Source: Desulfuribacillus stibiiarsenatis (GTDB lineage Bacteria > Bacillota > Bacilli > Desulfuribacillales > Desulfuribacillaceae). From it: a DNA stretch of 64,000 nt. The stretch lies in NCBI RefSeq assembly GCF_001742305.1, contig NZ_MJAT01000001.1, positions 310,001 through 374,000 on the forward strand, read 5' to 3'. Of this stretch, positions 9,051 through 15,118 are shown in pieces; the first letter of the stretch is position 1; each line of letters begins with the position of its first letter. The notes beneath the pieces were generated by a model that searched no databases, was not told where the DNA came from, and saw nothing but the letters and a program-made list of their open reading frames with translations. Both the position numbers and the translations under genes were made by a program.

Positions 9051-9089
9051 ATGAAAAGAGAAACAATTACTAGGAGAGATGCACAATGA
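9051..9089 (+). CDS. 12-codon upstream reading frame coupled to agrC
   Basis: An ATG at 9051 behind a very strong GGAAGGAG site opens a frame for MKRETITRRDAQ. Its TGA overlaps the ATG of agrC (AATGA). The arrangement suggests translational coupling or a regulatory leader peptide for the sensor kinase. The peptide itself has no recognisable feature. Confidence 0.45.
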   Translation: MKRETITRRDAQ

Positions 9090-10468
9090 TTACTATTGAA
9101 TCGTTTTTATTTCAATCCGTTCCCGAAGCGATAGTATTTACAGCTTTTGCATTAGCAATGGCTGGGTATATGATTCGTGACCATCTGATGAAAGTCTTAT
9201 TAGCAGGCTTTGTATCTGCTTGTATTGCAGTATCACTTTGGTTTCTAGAAGTCCCTTTTTATGTAAGATTTCTTCTTCAAATACCGCTTTTGTGGATTGT
9301 GCATTATTTTGTGTTTCGTTATCGTTTTAGCAGAGTAATGATAACAATTACAATCAGTATGGGTGTAATTATTATTGCTGAAACAATTAGTATTGAGGCA
9401 GTAACACTTGTGACGTATCTAACATTTGATGATTTGATTAATAGCAATCTATTAAGAATTATTGTACCGAGTGGAGGGTATACAGTTTTAATTTTATCTA
9501 CATACATTTTAAATAGAAAACGATGGTCATTATTTAGAGGAAACTCATTTTCTCAAGAAGTCAGAAATAAAAAAGTAGATTTGTATATATTTGCTCTAAT
9601 TGCTCAGTTGCTAATTGTAGTCATGTTTAACCTTAGTTTAGTAAATGGATTTTATCAACAAAGTGTACTGTTATTTAATATTATGACGTTAACTATTGTT
9701 ACTTTAACACTATTATTATTATTCTTCGTGCAATACTTAATTTCTTCTGCAGAAAAGGCAGGGGAATTGGAGGCACATAAAGACTATTTGAAGAGTGTAG
9801 AAGAACTATTTGTCACAATACGGGGACAAAGACATGATTTCATTAATCATATTCAGGTGTTAAATTCATACATGAAACTCAAAAAGTACGACTTGCTCGA
9901 TGAGTATATTAGTAACTTGACGACGGATGTTAGAGAGATAAGCAAAGTTCTGGTTCCAGATAATCCTACCCTAAGTGCATTATTGCAAACAAAAAGTGTA
10001 TTGTTTGAACGTGATGAAATTTTATTTATGCTAGATTTAAAGGGAGACTTATCAAAAATCCCTTTAGATAAGCTTGATCAAGTAAAGGTACTTGGCAACC
10101 TATTAGATAATGCGAAAGAAGCTATATTGCAAAATCAGGTTCAAGTTAATAAAAGAAAGATATCATTAGTTATTATAGAGCAAGCAAATGAAATACAGTT
10201 TAAAGTGTCTAATCTTGAGCCGATTCTATCAAAAGAATCGATAGCGAGAATGTTTGAGATAGGATATACAACAAAAGAAAATCATACTGGTATTGGATTA
10301 GCGATTGTGAACCAGATAGTTACTAAATATCGTGGGTGTATCAAGGTTTGTAGCTCTCACGAAGAGGGTACTGTATTCGAAATTACCATTCCGAAAGAAG
10401 GGGCTGAGTTTACTGATGAAGGGAATCTCCAGAGGGATAGCGGAACATATTGCGAAACACTCCAATAA
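9086..10468 (+). CDS. agrC: AgrC-like sensor histidine kinase (HPK10/GHKL type)
   Basis: The protein has 460 residues. Residues 1 to about 215 contain six or seven hydrophobic helices, as in peptide-sensing AgrC receptors. The phospho-acceptor region RHDFINH (His about 250) is the HPK10 variant. A GHKL ATPase domain follows with N-box GNLLDNAKEAI and G-box GIGLAIVN. It overlaps agrB by 53 bases and is followed by agrD and agrA, so it should sense the cyclic peptide made from AgrD and phosphorylate AgrA. Its own ribosome site AGGAG lies inside the preceding uORF. Confidence 0.88.
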   Translation: MITIESFLFQSVPEAIVFTAFALAMAGYMIRDHLMKVLLAGFVSACIAVSLWFLEVPFYVRFLLQIPLLWIVHYFVFRYRFSRVMITITISMGVIIIAETISIEAVTLVTYLTFDDLINSNLLRIIVPSGGYTVLILSTYILNRKRWSLFRGNSFSQEVRNKKVDLYIFALIAQLLIVVMFNLSLVNGFYQQSVLLFNIMTLTIVTLTLLLLFFVQYLISSAEKAGELEAHKDYLKSVEELFVTIRGQRHDFINHIQVLNSYMKLKKYDLLDEYISNLTTDVREISKVLVPDNPTLSALLQTKSVLFERDEILFMLDLKGDLSKIPLDKLDQVKVLGNLLDNAKEAILQNQVQVNKRKISLVIIEQANEIQFKVSNLEPILSKESIARMFEIGYTTKENHTGIGLAIVNQIVTKYRGCIKVCSSHEEGTVFEITIPKEGAEFTDEGNLQRDSGTYCETLQ

Positions 10469-11063
10469 GTCCGTATCGGTAAATGTCATGGCCTATGTAC
10501 TGGAAGCTCTATTAGGGGAAATAGTGAAGATAGCAGTTTTTCTTGCTATTGCTTTAGTATTCAATTGTGTAGTGGAAATGACAGCGGTTTTAGTAGGCTA
10601 TATGTTGATGAGAATCTTTACTGGTGGGCCACACTGCACATCCTATATGAGATGCCTAATCTTAGGAATAGTTTCATTTACACCCCTAGCCCTAATTAGT
10701 TACAAAATAGATAGTCAGACAATTCTAGCATTTGTGGTTATTTTATCTACTCTTTTCTCAACCTTTGCCATCTTTCAATGGGTTCCAGGACATTGGCATC
10801 AAAGAAAGCTCAAAAGACCAAAGGAATATTATCAGAATGCATCAACAATATTGTTAATCATTTTTCACAGTGCATCTACTGTGATATTGCTTTCAAATAA
10901 CGTAGAGTTGTATTCAGTCGGACTTGCTGTGCAGCTTGGAATAATATGGCAAGTCACTAATGTTTCCCCTATTGGTTATAAATTGGTCCATATTGCGGAT
11001 CGATTTATGATAAATGCTTTTTCAATATTCCATAAAGGAGGAACTGTCCATGATGAGTCTTAA
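10416..11063 (+). CDS. agrB: AgrB-like accessory gene regulator protein (AgrD-processing protease)
   Basis: The ATG at 10416 (after AGAAGGGG) gives 215 residues, the usual AgrB length; the longer in-frame extension from 10332 lies inside agrC. Residues RIFTGGPHCTSYMRC carry the conserved His and Cys of the membrane cysteine endopeptidase, which cuts AgrD and forms the thiolactone or lactone ring. Four to six hydrophobic helices follow. It overlaps agrC upstream and agrD downstream. Confidence 0.92.
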   Translation: MKGISRGIAEHIAKHSNKSVSVNVMAYVLEALLGEIVKIAVFLAIALVFNCVVEMTAVLVGYMLMRIFTGGPHCTSYMRCLILGIVSFTPLALISYKIDSQTILAFVVILSTLFSTFAIFQWVPGHWHQRKLKRPKEYYQNASTILLIIFHSASTVILLSNNVELYSVGLAVQLGIIWQVTNVSPIGYKLVHIADRFMINAFSIFHKGGTVHDES

Positions 11064-11178
11064 AGTGAAGTTCTATTCAATCGCTGCTAGCGTACTTGCT
11101 GTAGTTGCTGCTACAGACTTTTCAATTGCTAGCTTCGGATCATTTTACCAACCAGAGATTCCAGAAGAATTAAAGTAA
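11050..11178 (+). CDS. agrD: AgrD-like autoinducer pre-peptide (Ser ring residue)
   Basis: This 42-residue frame starts at an ATG (11050; a second ATG follows) behind a perfect AAAGGAGG site and overlaps the agrB stop. Residues 1-21 form an amphipathic, membrane-binding leader. The C-terminal recognition tail PEIPEELK matches the acidic P-x-x-PEEL tail of staphylococcal AgrD. By alignment with that tail the mature peptide should end at Phe32, giving a five-residue ring SFGSF (residues 28-32) closed by Ser28. There is no Cys in the peptide, so a lactone rather than a thiolactone is predicted, as in Staphylococcus intermedius. The exact N-terminal cut is unknown. Confidence 0.85.
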   Translation: MMSLKVKFYSIAASVLAVVAATDFSIASFGSFYQPEIPEELK

Positions 11179-11190
11179 GGGGAAACATAT

Positions 11191-11955
11191 ATGGATTATG
11201 AGGTGCAAGTCATCATCGCTGAAGATCATCCAGCCATACTAGAACATTTAGCATGTTTAGTCGAAAACTTCGAATCATTCAAAGTCGTTGCCACGGCAAT
11301 GAACGGAGAGGATTTTGTACAGCATGTCCGGCGTTTCTGTCCGGATGTCGTATTCGTCGACATTGACTTGCCGCTCATAAACGGGTTAGAAGCAGTAAAG
11401 CAAATACAACAAGAGGGTTTTACCCCGCTTGTTGTATTTTTCACTGCTCATTTAGACCATGCCCTTGATGCTTATCAGCTCTCCGCTGTGGATTATATTA
11501 CGAAACCAATTGATGAAGATAGGGTATATCGGACGTTAAATCGCTTATCCGACCAGATGAAGAAAGACCGCAGCTACATCTCTTCGATTCAAGAGGTTTT
11601 TCTTGATCCAGGACGAATCTATATAAAGGATGGCCATGGTGTTGTTTTTATTAAGCAGCAGGACATTCAATTCGTGACGAAGAAGGATAAGAAGTGTGTC
11701 ATTATAACAAAGGATAAAACTTTTGAAACCAATGAAAGCATGGGAGAGATTGAGCTTAAGCTAAATAAACGAATGTTTATCCGTTCGCATAAATCGTTTA
11801 TCATTAACTTAACGAAGGTACAACAAATTAGCCCTTGGGGAAAAGGGGCTTATGTGATAAACTTTGAAGGAACAACGGAAGAAGCGTATATCACCCGAGA
11901 TAAAGTCCATATGATTTACAAGATATTGAACATACCGTATAAAGAAGAACACTAA
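11191..11955 (+). CDS. agrA: AgrA/LytR-type response regulator with LytTR DNA-binding domain
   Basis: The protein has 254 residues. An N-terminal receiver domain holds the acidic pocket EDH, phospho-acceptor Asp57 (FVDID) and the conserved Lys in ITKP. The C-terminal ~100 residues are a LytTR domain (RSHKSFIINL). It starts 12 bases after agrD behind AAGGGGA and completes the agr circuit by activating target promoters. A hairpin terminator follows. Confidence 0.93.
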   Translation: MDYEVQVIIAEDHPAILEHLACLVENFESFKVVATAMNGEDFVQHVRRFCPDVVFVDIDLPLINGLEAVKQIQQEGFTPLVVFFTAHLDHALDAYQLSAVDYITKPIDEDRVYRTLNRLSDQMKKDRSYISSIQEVFLDPGRIYIKDGHGVVFIKQQDIQFVTKKDKKCVIITKDKTFETNESMGEIELKLNKRMFIRSHKSFIINLTKVQQISPWGKGAYVINFEGTTEEAYITRDKVHMIYKILNIPYKEEH

Positions 11956-11989
11956 TGGAAATCAAAATGGAAGTCGAAATCAAACCCAG

Positions 11990-12013
11990 AACCTCTTAGG
12001 AGGTTTTATTTAT
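11990..12013 (+). terminator. Terminator after agrA
   Basis: AACCTC and GAGGTT form a 6-bp stem around TTAG, followed by a T-rich tail. Confidence 0.7.
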
Positions 12014-12091
12014 TTCATACACGAAATTACATATAGTAGAATGAATAGATAATATGATGGGGAATTTATATAAGCAAGAGGGGGAACATAT

Positions 12092-13618
12092 ATGGAGAAA
12101 CAGGAGGATATCACAACCACCACTCATAAAATCAAGCGATTTGAACGAATACTTATACCTTTTGTAATATTTACAGGGGTATTAATTACGTATTGGATTA
12201 CTGATAACTTCTTATATGGGAACGAATGGAATGGCGAATGGAAGAAAGCACAAGGACTAGGAAACATAATCACACTTCATTATGAATCGGTTGAGCCACT
12301 ACAAACGGTTCAATTAATATCTAAGCATGAAATTACGGGAATTTTACAAGAACGAGATACTGACGTTGGTACGGTGTATTTGTTTTCCGATAGTACTACA
12401 GAAGAAGCAGAAATCGCGGTTGGCTTTGAGAATCACGGGGGAGAAACCTATCATCTTGGTTTTGTTGGAGATGTTCGTTCATTGGAATTAACTAGCATCA
12501 CGCAAATGAGTATGAATGGCTTAGAAATACTAAGAGTTTCAGGAGTCTATGGCGCAAATGCTCCTGTGACGCAGTATTATGCCATCGAGAAAGAAGTGCC
12601 ACTCCCATATCTAATTGTTGACACAGGTTATACCACTGAGGTTGATTTAGACGGGGATGGAGTGATAGAGATAATCGCTCAGCATGGAACGCCAACTACA
12701 ACTTCTCTATACCGTTACTATCAAGACAACTGGCAGGTAACGAATGTGAATCAAGCACTACAAGTATTATCTGTTCGATATGATGACACAAATAAAGAAT
12801 TTGAAGGATACCATGATAATCACAAGACAAAGCGATATCAATTTATCACTACTGTTTCCGAAGTTGGCAAGACTAACTCAGGACTTCAAGAGATTGTAGG
12901 AAAAGATATAAATGAAGCAGTAAAGCAGGCTATTTTGTCGCATAACTCCTTTTATAAAGAGGGGGAAGTAGCGACTGCGGGGCATGTCATTCTAGATACT
13001 CAGGAAATGCCTAATGGAGATACGGTTGTATATACTATTGCTAGTTTTGGAACCTTTGGTTTTGAAAATGGTATTTTCACGAAGATTAGTGGCACTGGTA
13101 GTATTCCTACAGTCATGATATTTTCTAAGCCTAAAGACGGCAACTATGTGTTCGAAGCTTATAAGGAACCTATGGATGGTTCGTATTACGTCGACTCCTT
13201 AAAGAAATTATTCCCGAAAAGATTGCACAAACAAGTATTAGCTTCACAAGAATCGTATCAAGAAGTGATTGAACAGCTAGAACAACAAGCGAAGGAGTAC
13301 TTGCAAACTATCGGACGCGAAGCAATTGTTCAAGCAAAGCATGTCGAGAAGAAGCTATCAACCATTCACGTAGAAGCTTCTAATAAGATTTTTGCAGAGC
13401 ATACCAAGTTCGACCAATTTCTTAATGACTGTCCGTATTGGATTGGAACGAGAGAGCGTGTTGAAAACGGTATCCGTTATATCTACAAAACAGAGCAAAC
13501 GCTAGATACGGAAGGCTTCGATGTAATAATTTTTTCAAAAACAGATGCGCACGGGAATATAATCGAGCGTAGGGAATATAAGATTGTAGGTCCAGAACCT
13601 ATAGTAGTAAAAAAATAG
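12092..13618 (+). CDS. Membrane-anchored protein resembling the extracellular part of BlaR1-type sensors
   Basis: This 508-residue protein starts at an ATG behind AAGAGGGGG. One hydrophobic segment at about 20-42 anchors a large extracellular part. Around residue 175-195 is a calcium-loop-like DLDGDGVIEI, as in VCBS/FG-GAP-like repeats. The segment YTIASFGTFGFENGIFTK and the later PMDGSYYVDSLKKLFP recall the C-terminal domain of Firmicute BlaR1/M56-family regulators. The peptidase and repressor parts are absent, so this looks like a stand-alone sensor or binding domain. The function is unknown and the family link is from memory. Confidence 0.55.
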   Translation: MEKQEDITTTTHKIKRFERILIPFVIFTGVLITYWITDNFLYGNEWNGEWKKAQGLGNIITLHYESVEPLQTVQLISKHEITGILQERDTDVGTVYLFSDSTTEEAEIAVGFENHGGETYHLGFVGDVRSLELTSITQMSMNGLEILRVSGVYGANAPVTQYYAIEKEVPLPYLIVDTGYTTEVDLDGDGVIEIIAQHGTPTTTSLYRYYQDNWQVTNVNQALQVLSVRYDDTNKEFEGYHDNHKTKRYQFITTVSEVGKTNSGLQEIVGKDINEAVKQAILSHNSFYKEGEVATAGHVILDTQEMPNGDTVVYTIASFGTFGFENGIFTKISGTGSIPTVMIFSKPKDGNYVFEAYKEPMDGSYYVDSLKKLFPKRLHKQVLASQESYQEVIEQLEQQAKEYLQTIGREAIVQAKHVEKKLSTIHVEASNKIFAEHTKFDQFLNDCPYWIGTRERVENGIRYIYKTEQTLDTEGFDVIIFSKTDAHGNIIERREYKIVGPEPIVVKK

Positions 13619-13742
13619 GCATGAAATTCTGTAAATATGGTAAACGAAACTCTGTAAAGGGATAACTAGGCAATATATGATGATAGAAGGTAATAAATGA
13701 TGGTAAAAGGGCTTTGCATTATGATCGCGAGGTGATTTTGGT

Positions 13743-14489
13743 ATGAGCTACGAGGATATGGTGATGGGGGAGCTGCAGCAATGGCAAAGCAGGATGACGA
13801 AAAAGCCATCGCTAGTGGACCGCGCAACGAAGGGTATACAGCGTAAAGTAAATCGTGTAATTCCAGAGAAAGCGCACCAAGTGATTACTGCAGCTATCAA
13901 GAACATGGTGCGCGCAGTGTTGTTTGGCTCAGAGTACATTACACAAAGGCCTCGGCGCGTGGGCTCATTAGAAGAGCGCGAGGTCCTGGTGAAAGAGAAA
14001 ATCTCGAAGTACAAAAAGACGGCTGCTGCCAGCGGAGCGGGAACAGGCGCCGGTGGAATCTTGCTCGGGCTTGCGGATTTTCCTATTTTACTAAGTATTA
14101 AAATTAAATTCCTTTTCGATGTTGCAAGTATATACGGTTACAATATTAGTGATTATCGGGAGCGGCTTTATGTTTTACATATTTTTCAGTTAGCTTTTTC
14201 TAGCCAGGAGAGACGAAATGAAGTCTATCAACAAATTGTTGATTGGGATCGAAAAGCGGAAGATATGCCAGTGGATATTGAATCTTTTCCTTGGCAACAG
14301 TTTCAACAGGAGTATCGCGATTATATTGATTTAGCAAAAATGTTTCAGCTTGTTCCAATTATCGGGGCGTTTGTAGGGGCATATGCGAATTATAAGCTAT
14401 TAGATAAGCTCGGAGAAACAGCGATGAATGCATTTCGAATGCGGAAATTGCCTTCCTATACTTATGGGTTGTTTGACGAGTTGAAGTGA
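13743..14489 (+). CDS. EcsC family protein
   Basis: This 248-residue protein starts at an ATG after GAGGTGATTTT. The middle has a Gly/Ala-rich stretch (AAASGAGTGAGGILLGLAD) and the ending IIGAFVGAYANYKLLDKLG typical of EcsC. In Bacillus, EcsC accompanies the EcsAB transporter, but many family members stand alone as here. It probably associates with the membrane; its biochemical role is unknown. Confidence 0.8.
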   Translation: MSYEDMVMGELQQWQSRMTKKPSLVDRATKGIQRKVNRVIPEKAHQVITAAIKNMVRAVLFGSEYITQRPRRVGSLEEREVLVKEKISKYKKTAAASGAGTGAGGILLGLADFPILLSIKIKFLFDVASIYGYNISDYRERLYVLHIFQLAFSSQERRNEVYQQIVDWDRKAEDMPVDIESFPWQQFQQEYRDYIDLAKMFQLVPIIGAFVGAYANYKLLDKLGETAMNAFRMRKLPSYTYGLFDELK

Positions 14490-14534
14490 AGATTTGACGA
14501 ATTACAGTAAGGAATTTATCGAGTTTCAGTAAAG

Positions 14535-14565
14535 AAGGGTACCAGTTAACACTGGTAGCCCTTTT
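14535..14565. terminator. Terminator shared by ecsC and iorB
   Basis: AAGGGTACCAGT and ACTGGTAGCCCTT form a near-perfect stem around TTAA, followed by TTTT on the plus strand. The right arm includes the last codons of iorB. Confidence 0.75.
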
Positions 14566-15118
14566 CAAATGCAAGTTTATTTAATTCAAGAAAACGGCTA
14601 GGGATGATTTTCTCAAGCGCTTTTTCCCATATCGACTTTTCGATTGGTAATTGCTTTGCCAAGTATCCCATTAGAACAACGTTAGCAGCTTTAGGAGTAC
14701 CACACTCCATTGCCATTTCTAAAGCGTTTATTGATTTCACTGCGACCCCAAGATTATCAAGCGTTTGAATGACCTCATTTGGGTATTGGGCGATGCCCAT
14801 AATCACTGGCATTGGCTCGATAACCTGATTGCTGATAAATATTTTCCCATTGGGTTTAAGGTATTCTGCCCAACGGTACCCCTCTAAAAGCTCGAAGGCG
14901 GCAATAAAGTCGGCTTCACCCTTATCAATTGTAGGAGAGGAAATGCTATCACCAATACGAACTTGGGTTACTACGCTACCACCACGCTGGGACATTCCCT
15001 TAATCTCTGACATTTTCACATCATAATCCGCGTCAATGGCAACTTGACTCATAAGCTTACTCGCAAGTATTGTTCCTTGTCCACCGACACCAACTAATAA
15101 AATATTTAATGTATCCAT
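14546..15118 (-). CDS. iorB: Indolepyruvate:ferredoxin oxidoreductase beta subunit
   Basis: The ATG at 15118 shares bases with the iorA stop (TAATG), so translation is coupled; this gives 190 residues. The N-terminal GVGGQGTILASK and MSQRGGSV are typical of the gamma-type domain of 2-oxoacid:ferredoxin oxidoreductases. With IorA it oxidatively decarboxylates aryl-pyruvates to aryl-acetyl-CoA and reduces ferredoxin in the cytoplasm. It is the last gene of the putative dctPQM-paaK-iorAB operon. Confidence 0.95.
   Translation of the reverse strand: MDTLNILLVGVGGQGTILASKLMSQVAIDADYDVKMSEIKGMSQRGGSVVTQVRIGDSISSPTIDKGEADFIAAFELLEGYRWAEYLKPNGKIFISNQVIEPMPVIMGIAQYPNEVIQTLDNLGVAVKSINALEMAMECGTPKAANVVLMGYLAKQLPIEKSIWEKALEKIIPSRFLELNKLAFEKGYQC

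Follow-up and report, generated by a model that had tools for sequence, protein, structure and literature searches.

Which signal, if any, does the small gene behind agrB in Desulfuribacillus stibiiarsenatis encode, and through which residue would its ring be closed? The question arises in a stretch of 64,000 nucleotides of contig NZ_MJAT01000001.1 (hereafter the window), for which an AgrD precursor of 42 residues devoid of Cys had been proposed at 11050-11178. Reading of the open reading frames confirmed the coordinates, the length, and the absence of Cys. The locus is very probably a quorum-sensing operon of the Ser (lactone) Agr type, with lactone formation, secretion, and signaling argued by analogy with the family. 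A predicted new peptide signal in a lineage without a described one would, taken alone, add a single member to those known; the wider distribution of Ser among related precursors is the more interesting result.

The agr Operon and Its Genes

The operon has the order agrC-agrB-agrD-agrA and spans 9086-11955 of the forward strand (Table 1), with family matches for all four proteins in profile searches. The N-terminal half of the AgrC-like protein is hydrophobic and contains several membrane segments; the kinase domains come after it, and the phospho-His motif RHDFINH is found at residue 249; the match to the staphylococcal AgrC model NF046015 is weak (36 bits, cut-off 500). The 5' end of agrB overlaps agrC by 53 bases, and the catalytic pair of its product, His73 and Cys80, lies within GGPHCTSYMRC, both residues being invariant in the 78 AgrBs compared. 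An AgrB with catalytic His and Cys, a polytopic sensor kinase, and a LytTR regulator, as expected of an Agr system, occur together in the operon. This is the single AgrB locus found in the genome. A search of the PDB by sequence with AgrB returned no relative, and a scan of viral contigs and of a collection of 84,980 species genomes found none either.

Table 1. Features of the agr locus in the window.
Feature	Position	Strand	Remarks
agrC-like sensor histidine kinase, 460 aa	9086..10468	+	SPOB_a / HATPase_c
agrB, membrane cysteine peptidase, 215 aa	10416..11063	+	PF04647, 98.7 bits
agrD, signal precursor, 42 aa	11050..11178	+	TIGR04223; kept in G001
Predicted ring SFGSF (Ser28-Phe32)	11131..11145	+	Ser28 codon 11131-11133; gap-free alignment columns
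C-terminal recognition tail YQPEIPEELK	11146..11175	+	presumably removed by AgrB
agrA-like response regulator, 254 aa	11191..11955	+	Response_reg + LytTR
Terminator-like hairpin closing the operon	11988..12012	+	hairpin also given as 11988-12007; 8 pairs followed by ATTTATTTCA, recognized by pattern alone

AgrD scores well above the cut-off of the NCBIfam model TIGR04223 (quorum_AgrD; E 3.7e-9, 36.5 bits, cut-off 19). The first 14 bases of its gene lie within the 3' end of agrB, and a Shine-Dalgarno sequence AGGAGG stands shortly 5' of the ATG (MMSLKVKFYSIAASVLAVVAATDFSIASFGSFYQPEIPEELK; the site is also given as AAAGGAGG). Ser occurs at residues 3, 10, 14, 25, 28, and 31, and the presumed ring Ser is placed five positions before a tail of the Y/D/H-[EQ]-P type, as in the AgrD family.

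At the other end of the operon, a short open reading frame (MKRETITRRDAQ, 9051-9089) has its own Shine-Dalgarno-like site, ends by sharing ATGA with the start of agrC, and may serve as a translational leader. Binding repeats of the S. aureus AgrA type gave no match in the window at up to one mismatch to the consensus; such repeats are a staphylococcal detail and do not define the wider Agr family. No convincing short repeats turned up in the surroundings of the operon.

Conservation within the Family

The only same-family genome, G001, carries agrC-agrB-agrD in the same genomic setting. Its AgrD shares 21 of the 42 residues of the AgrD of the window in a gap-free alignment, overlaps agrB in the same way, and has Ser at the same column, the ring and tail reading SMGTI-YEPEMPAELK. 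Since the same gene recurs there with the same agrB overlap, agrD is more than a chance open reading frame. The AgrBs of the two genera share 46% identity and both keep the motifs. Conservation does not extend to the output arm even inside the family: G001 has no agrA beside agrCBD, the best match in its genome being a paralogue with 32% identity.

The flanks of the two loci also differ. In G001 (L089, from 10403 onwards), agrCBD is placed directly 5' of indolepyruvate oxidoreductase genes, while in the window agrA and two more genes (12092-13618 and 13743-14489) stand between them, over 11191-14489. A comparison of two gene orders would fit either a gain of these three genes in one lineage or their loss in the other.

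Predicted Position of the Ring

To derive the register, TIGR04223 was run over 398 genomes of the class; 72 genomes matched, and their loci yielded 71 usable sequences. Nine AgrDs read beside AgrB relatives were added (seven also TIGR04223 matches, two not), giving an alignment of 80 sequences whose reach is that of the model and of close AgrB relatives, at one genome per species. The column of Ser28 (window numbering) holds Ser in 40 sequences, Cys in 38, and Leu in two, while the residues flanking it are variable, including the other ring columns. Columns 28-32 have no gap in any sequence, so that the ring length is constant at five. In the tail, Pro38 is invariant (80/80), and P35, E40, and L41 are each kept in 68-71 sequences. 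The assignment of Ser28 as the ring residue in a ring SFGSF, made in the original prediction, is thereby borne out: the alignment lends good support to a ring SFGSF with the AgrB cut at Phe32/Tyr33, because Ser or Cys fills column 28 in 78 of 80 sequences and the five ring columns are gap-free.

Distribution of Ser and Cys and the AgrB Tree

Reviews present Ser as the exception, found in the S. intermedius group and E. faecalis, and S. pseudintermedius and E. faecalis are the cases named among characterized systems (PMC3673130, PMC12312760). In the sampled genomes, Ser is instead the usual state outside Staphylococcus. Among the 25 genera with AgrD, 16 have Ser only and five Cys only; three have both, and one has Ser, Cys, and Leu. 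Genus g11, taken to be Staphylococcus from its rings resembling staphylococcal AIPs, contributes 24 Cys and one Ser, whereas all other genera together contribute 39 Ser, 14 Cys, and two Leu. Thus, the statement that Ser-type peptides are uncommon holds for characterized systems only; among the Bacilli surveyed, the Ser form is commoner than the Cys form outside Staphylococcus. Among the papers covered, our literature search found no account of Ser-type AgrD in Bacilli beyond the known examples; the novelty of the survey is accordingly tentative.

The ring residue follows the AgrB phylogeny. On a quick tree of 78 AgrBs, it changes four times, compared with a mean of 27.6 after shuffling. A more careful tree search, from which 12 long-branched or troublesome rows were left out (including some Cys types of unsure place), again gave four changes, where shuffling gave 23.5 on average and none of 200 shuffles was as low, although near-copies inflate the clustering. 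A branch with 100/100 support sets apart the Ser side, together with the two Leu types and one Cys switch (L008); a single old split describes the bulk of the data and not every sequence. The AgrB of the window belongs to the Ser side, where it pairs with that of G001 at 100/100 support. A separate switch, alone within the Cys clade, is L061 (PTSTGFF), the one staphylococcal Ser type.

AgrB1 and AgrB2 of S. aureus are unable to process an AgrD containing Ser (PMC10482373). This agrees with the tree and suggests that enzyme and nucleophile go together. We lean, with little more than even confidence, towards Ser (lactone) Agr signaling as an old branch of Bacilli with an AgrB lineage specialized for an oxygen nucleophile; the window would lie inside it, and the staphylococcal thiolactones would represent the other branch. 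Given how cleanly the ring residue tracks the AgrB branch, the choice of AgrB between oxygen and sulfur is directly testable, and natural switches are available in both directions (L007/L008 within one genus, L053/L061 in Staphylococcus). Some AgrB columns distinguish the Ser from the Cys types, e.g., position 128 (Thr in 33 of the 36 Cys types); they were not accepted as specificity residues, as they may be clade markers only.

A third AgrD-like type was noticed beside AgrB (L011, L013, and L099-L118) in genus g5 (a match in 61 of 100 genomes), which we read as Paenibacillus-like from its peptides. In the 20 sequences read, Leu, Ile, or Met occupies the ring column and is followed by an invariant Lys-Pro (..LKPxxHSPEIPKELRK). 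There is no Ser or Cys nucleophile at the usual place, and the AgrB partner retains His and Cys; judging from these sequences, the product could be linear, a Lys lactam, or something else. TIGR04223 missed this type in G004. Brevibacillus phage Davies, reported to carry an agr cassette (PMC3901668), encodes a hypothetical protein (KC595518.2, 28164-28280) with a weak resemblance to the Lys-type AgrD (41% identity over 39 aa, E 0.6). In addition, an AgrB relative (24% identity) is present at 14466-15065 of NZ_CP061968.1, a record labeled as a Klebsiella pneumoniae plasmid, possibly through Gram-positive contamination.

Proposed Mechanism and Mature Product

The genes, motif residues, register, and phylogenetic pattern are read directly, and the family suggests how they would act. 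The hydrophobic N-terminal half of AgrD would anchor it at the membrane, and the catalytic Cys of AgrB would cut it between Phe32 and Tyr33. The hydroxyl of Ser28 would then resolve the acyl-enzyme as an oxygen ester, giving the five-residue lactone SFGSF with the N-terminal leader still attached, and a second protease would free the peptide from this leader. The exported peptide would be sensed by AgrC, which would phosphorylate the LytTR regulator AgrA and so reach its target genes. The sample contains one positive control, since one staphylococcal Ser type, PTSTGFF (L061), was recovered; it fits the lactone of the S. intermedius group, RIPTSTGFF. The proven lactone of this group is described in PMC3673130 and PMC10482373.

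Several points weigh against a lactone operon. AgrB homology alone is no proof, and a linear peptide released by hydrolysis is compatible with the sequence. Two AgrD relatives, L011 and L013, have Leu in the ring column and show that some AgrB partners lack the usual nucleophile, and the output arm is not conserved. A linear product, or a ring closed by Ser25 or Ser31, is nevertheless improbable: AgrD does have Ser at both positions, and column 25 holds Ser in 19 of 75 sequences, but only column 28 is nearly always Ser or Cys, column 31 being mostly F/Y/W and column 25 variable and sometimes gapped. A decayed or silent operon without a signal product is harder still to credit. The missing adjacent agrA of G001 would fit such a decay, yet the window has four intact frames with Shine-Dalgarno and terminator-like sites in place, and the motifs have been kept in two genera whose AgrBs have diverged to 46% identity.

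The lactone operon stands as the preferred reading, and the more serious alternative concerns the product originally predicted and not the identity of the operon. The nonamer FSIASFGSF had been put forward as the signal; no sequence evidence fixes its N-terminal cut, and a bare SFGSF is about as plausible. The calculated [M+H]+ values of the cyclic forms are 526.23 for SFGSF, 710.35 for IASFGSF, 944.45 for FSIASFGSF, and 1160.53 for TDFSIASFGSF, each linear form being heavier by 18.01. That the mature signal is this bare lactone without a tail, or a head-to-tail cyclopeptide arising from it by an acyl shift, is a real possibility to which we give somewhat less than even weight. Ala27 directly precedes Ser28, SIA|S resembles a signal peptidase site, and Ala is the commonest residue before the ring Ser (18 of 33 distinct Ser cores). 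The Listeria AIP is a tail-less pentamer, CFMFV (PMC4916163), and PMC11297923 reports a rearrangement of pentameric thiolactone AIPs to homodetic cyclopeptides. On the other hand, staphylococcal AIPs usually retain part of the tail, the lactone of S. intermedius has nine residues in all (PMC3673130), and S. aureus uses MroQ and not signal peptidase (PMC10482373). Two CPBP proteins (PF02517) are encoded in the genome of the window, neither of them near the operon.

Comparison with Known and Surveyed Systems

The nearest AgrBs on the tree belong to agrCBD loci of other Bacilli (L003, L026, L043, L044, L045, L055), with a Ser ring and mostly a Y[QE]PE.P tail. Among the loci read (L003, L004, L005, L009), a kinase gene precedes agrB as in the window, and agrA is not adjacent in the stretches covered. 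The ring sequences of these agrCBD loci are all different, and none of the loci is characterized in the papers found.

The Fsr system of Enterococcus faecalis likewise produces a Ser lactone, GBAP, from an AgrB-type enzyme (PMC12312760), as predicted for the window. Its ring, however, has nine residues and fsrD lies inside fsrB (PMC3673130, PMC12312760), in contrast to the five-residue ring and separate agrD of the window. The agr system of Listeria monocytogenes shares the five-residue ring, and its tail-less AIP (PMC4916163) offers a possible model for the N-terminal cut, but it is a Cys thiolactone.

The original prediction had stressed the similarity to the S. intermedius lactone. In form this is upheld: S. 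intermedius / pseudintermedius agr and the window share Ser at the ring column, Gly at the third position, and Phe at the last (STGFF / SFGSF), as well as an AgrB with His and Cys. Kinship of the Ser is not supported. The staphylococcal gene order is BDCA as opposed to CBDA, the AgrBs are far diverged, and the S. intermedius-type AgrB, judged from L061, is a lone Ser switch in the Cys clade, whereas that of the window is in the Ser clade. Because the ring residue changes mainly across one AgrB branch of 100/100 support, with L061 and the window on opposite sides, the likeness of the ring residue appears from the tree to be convergent.
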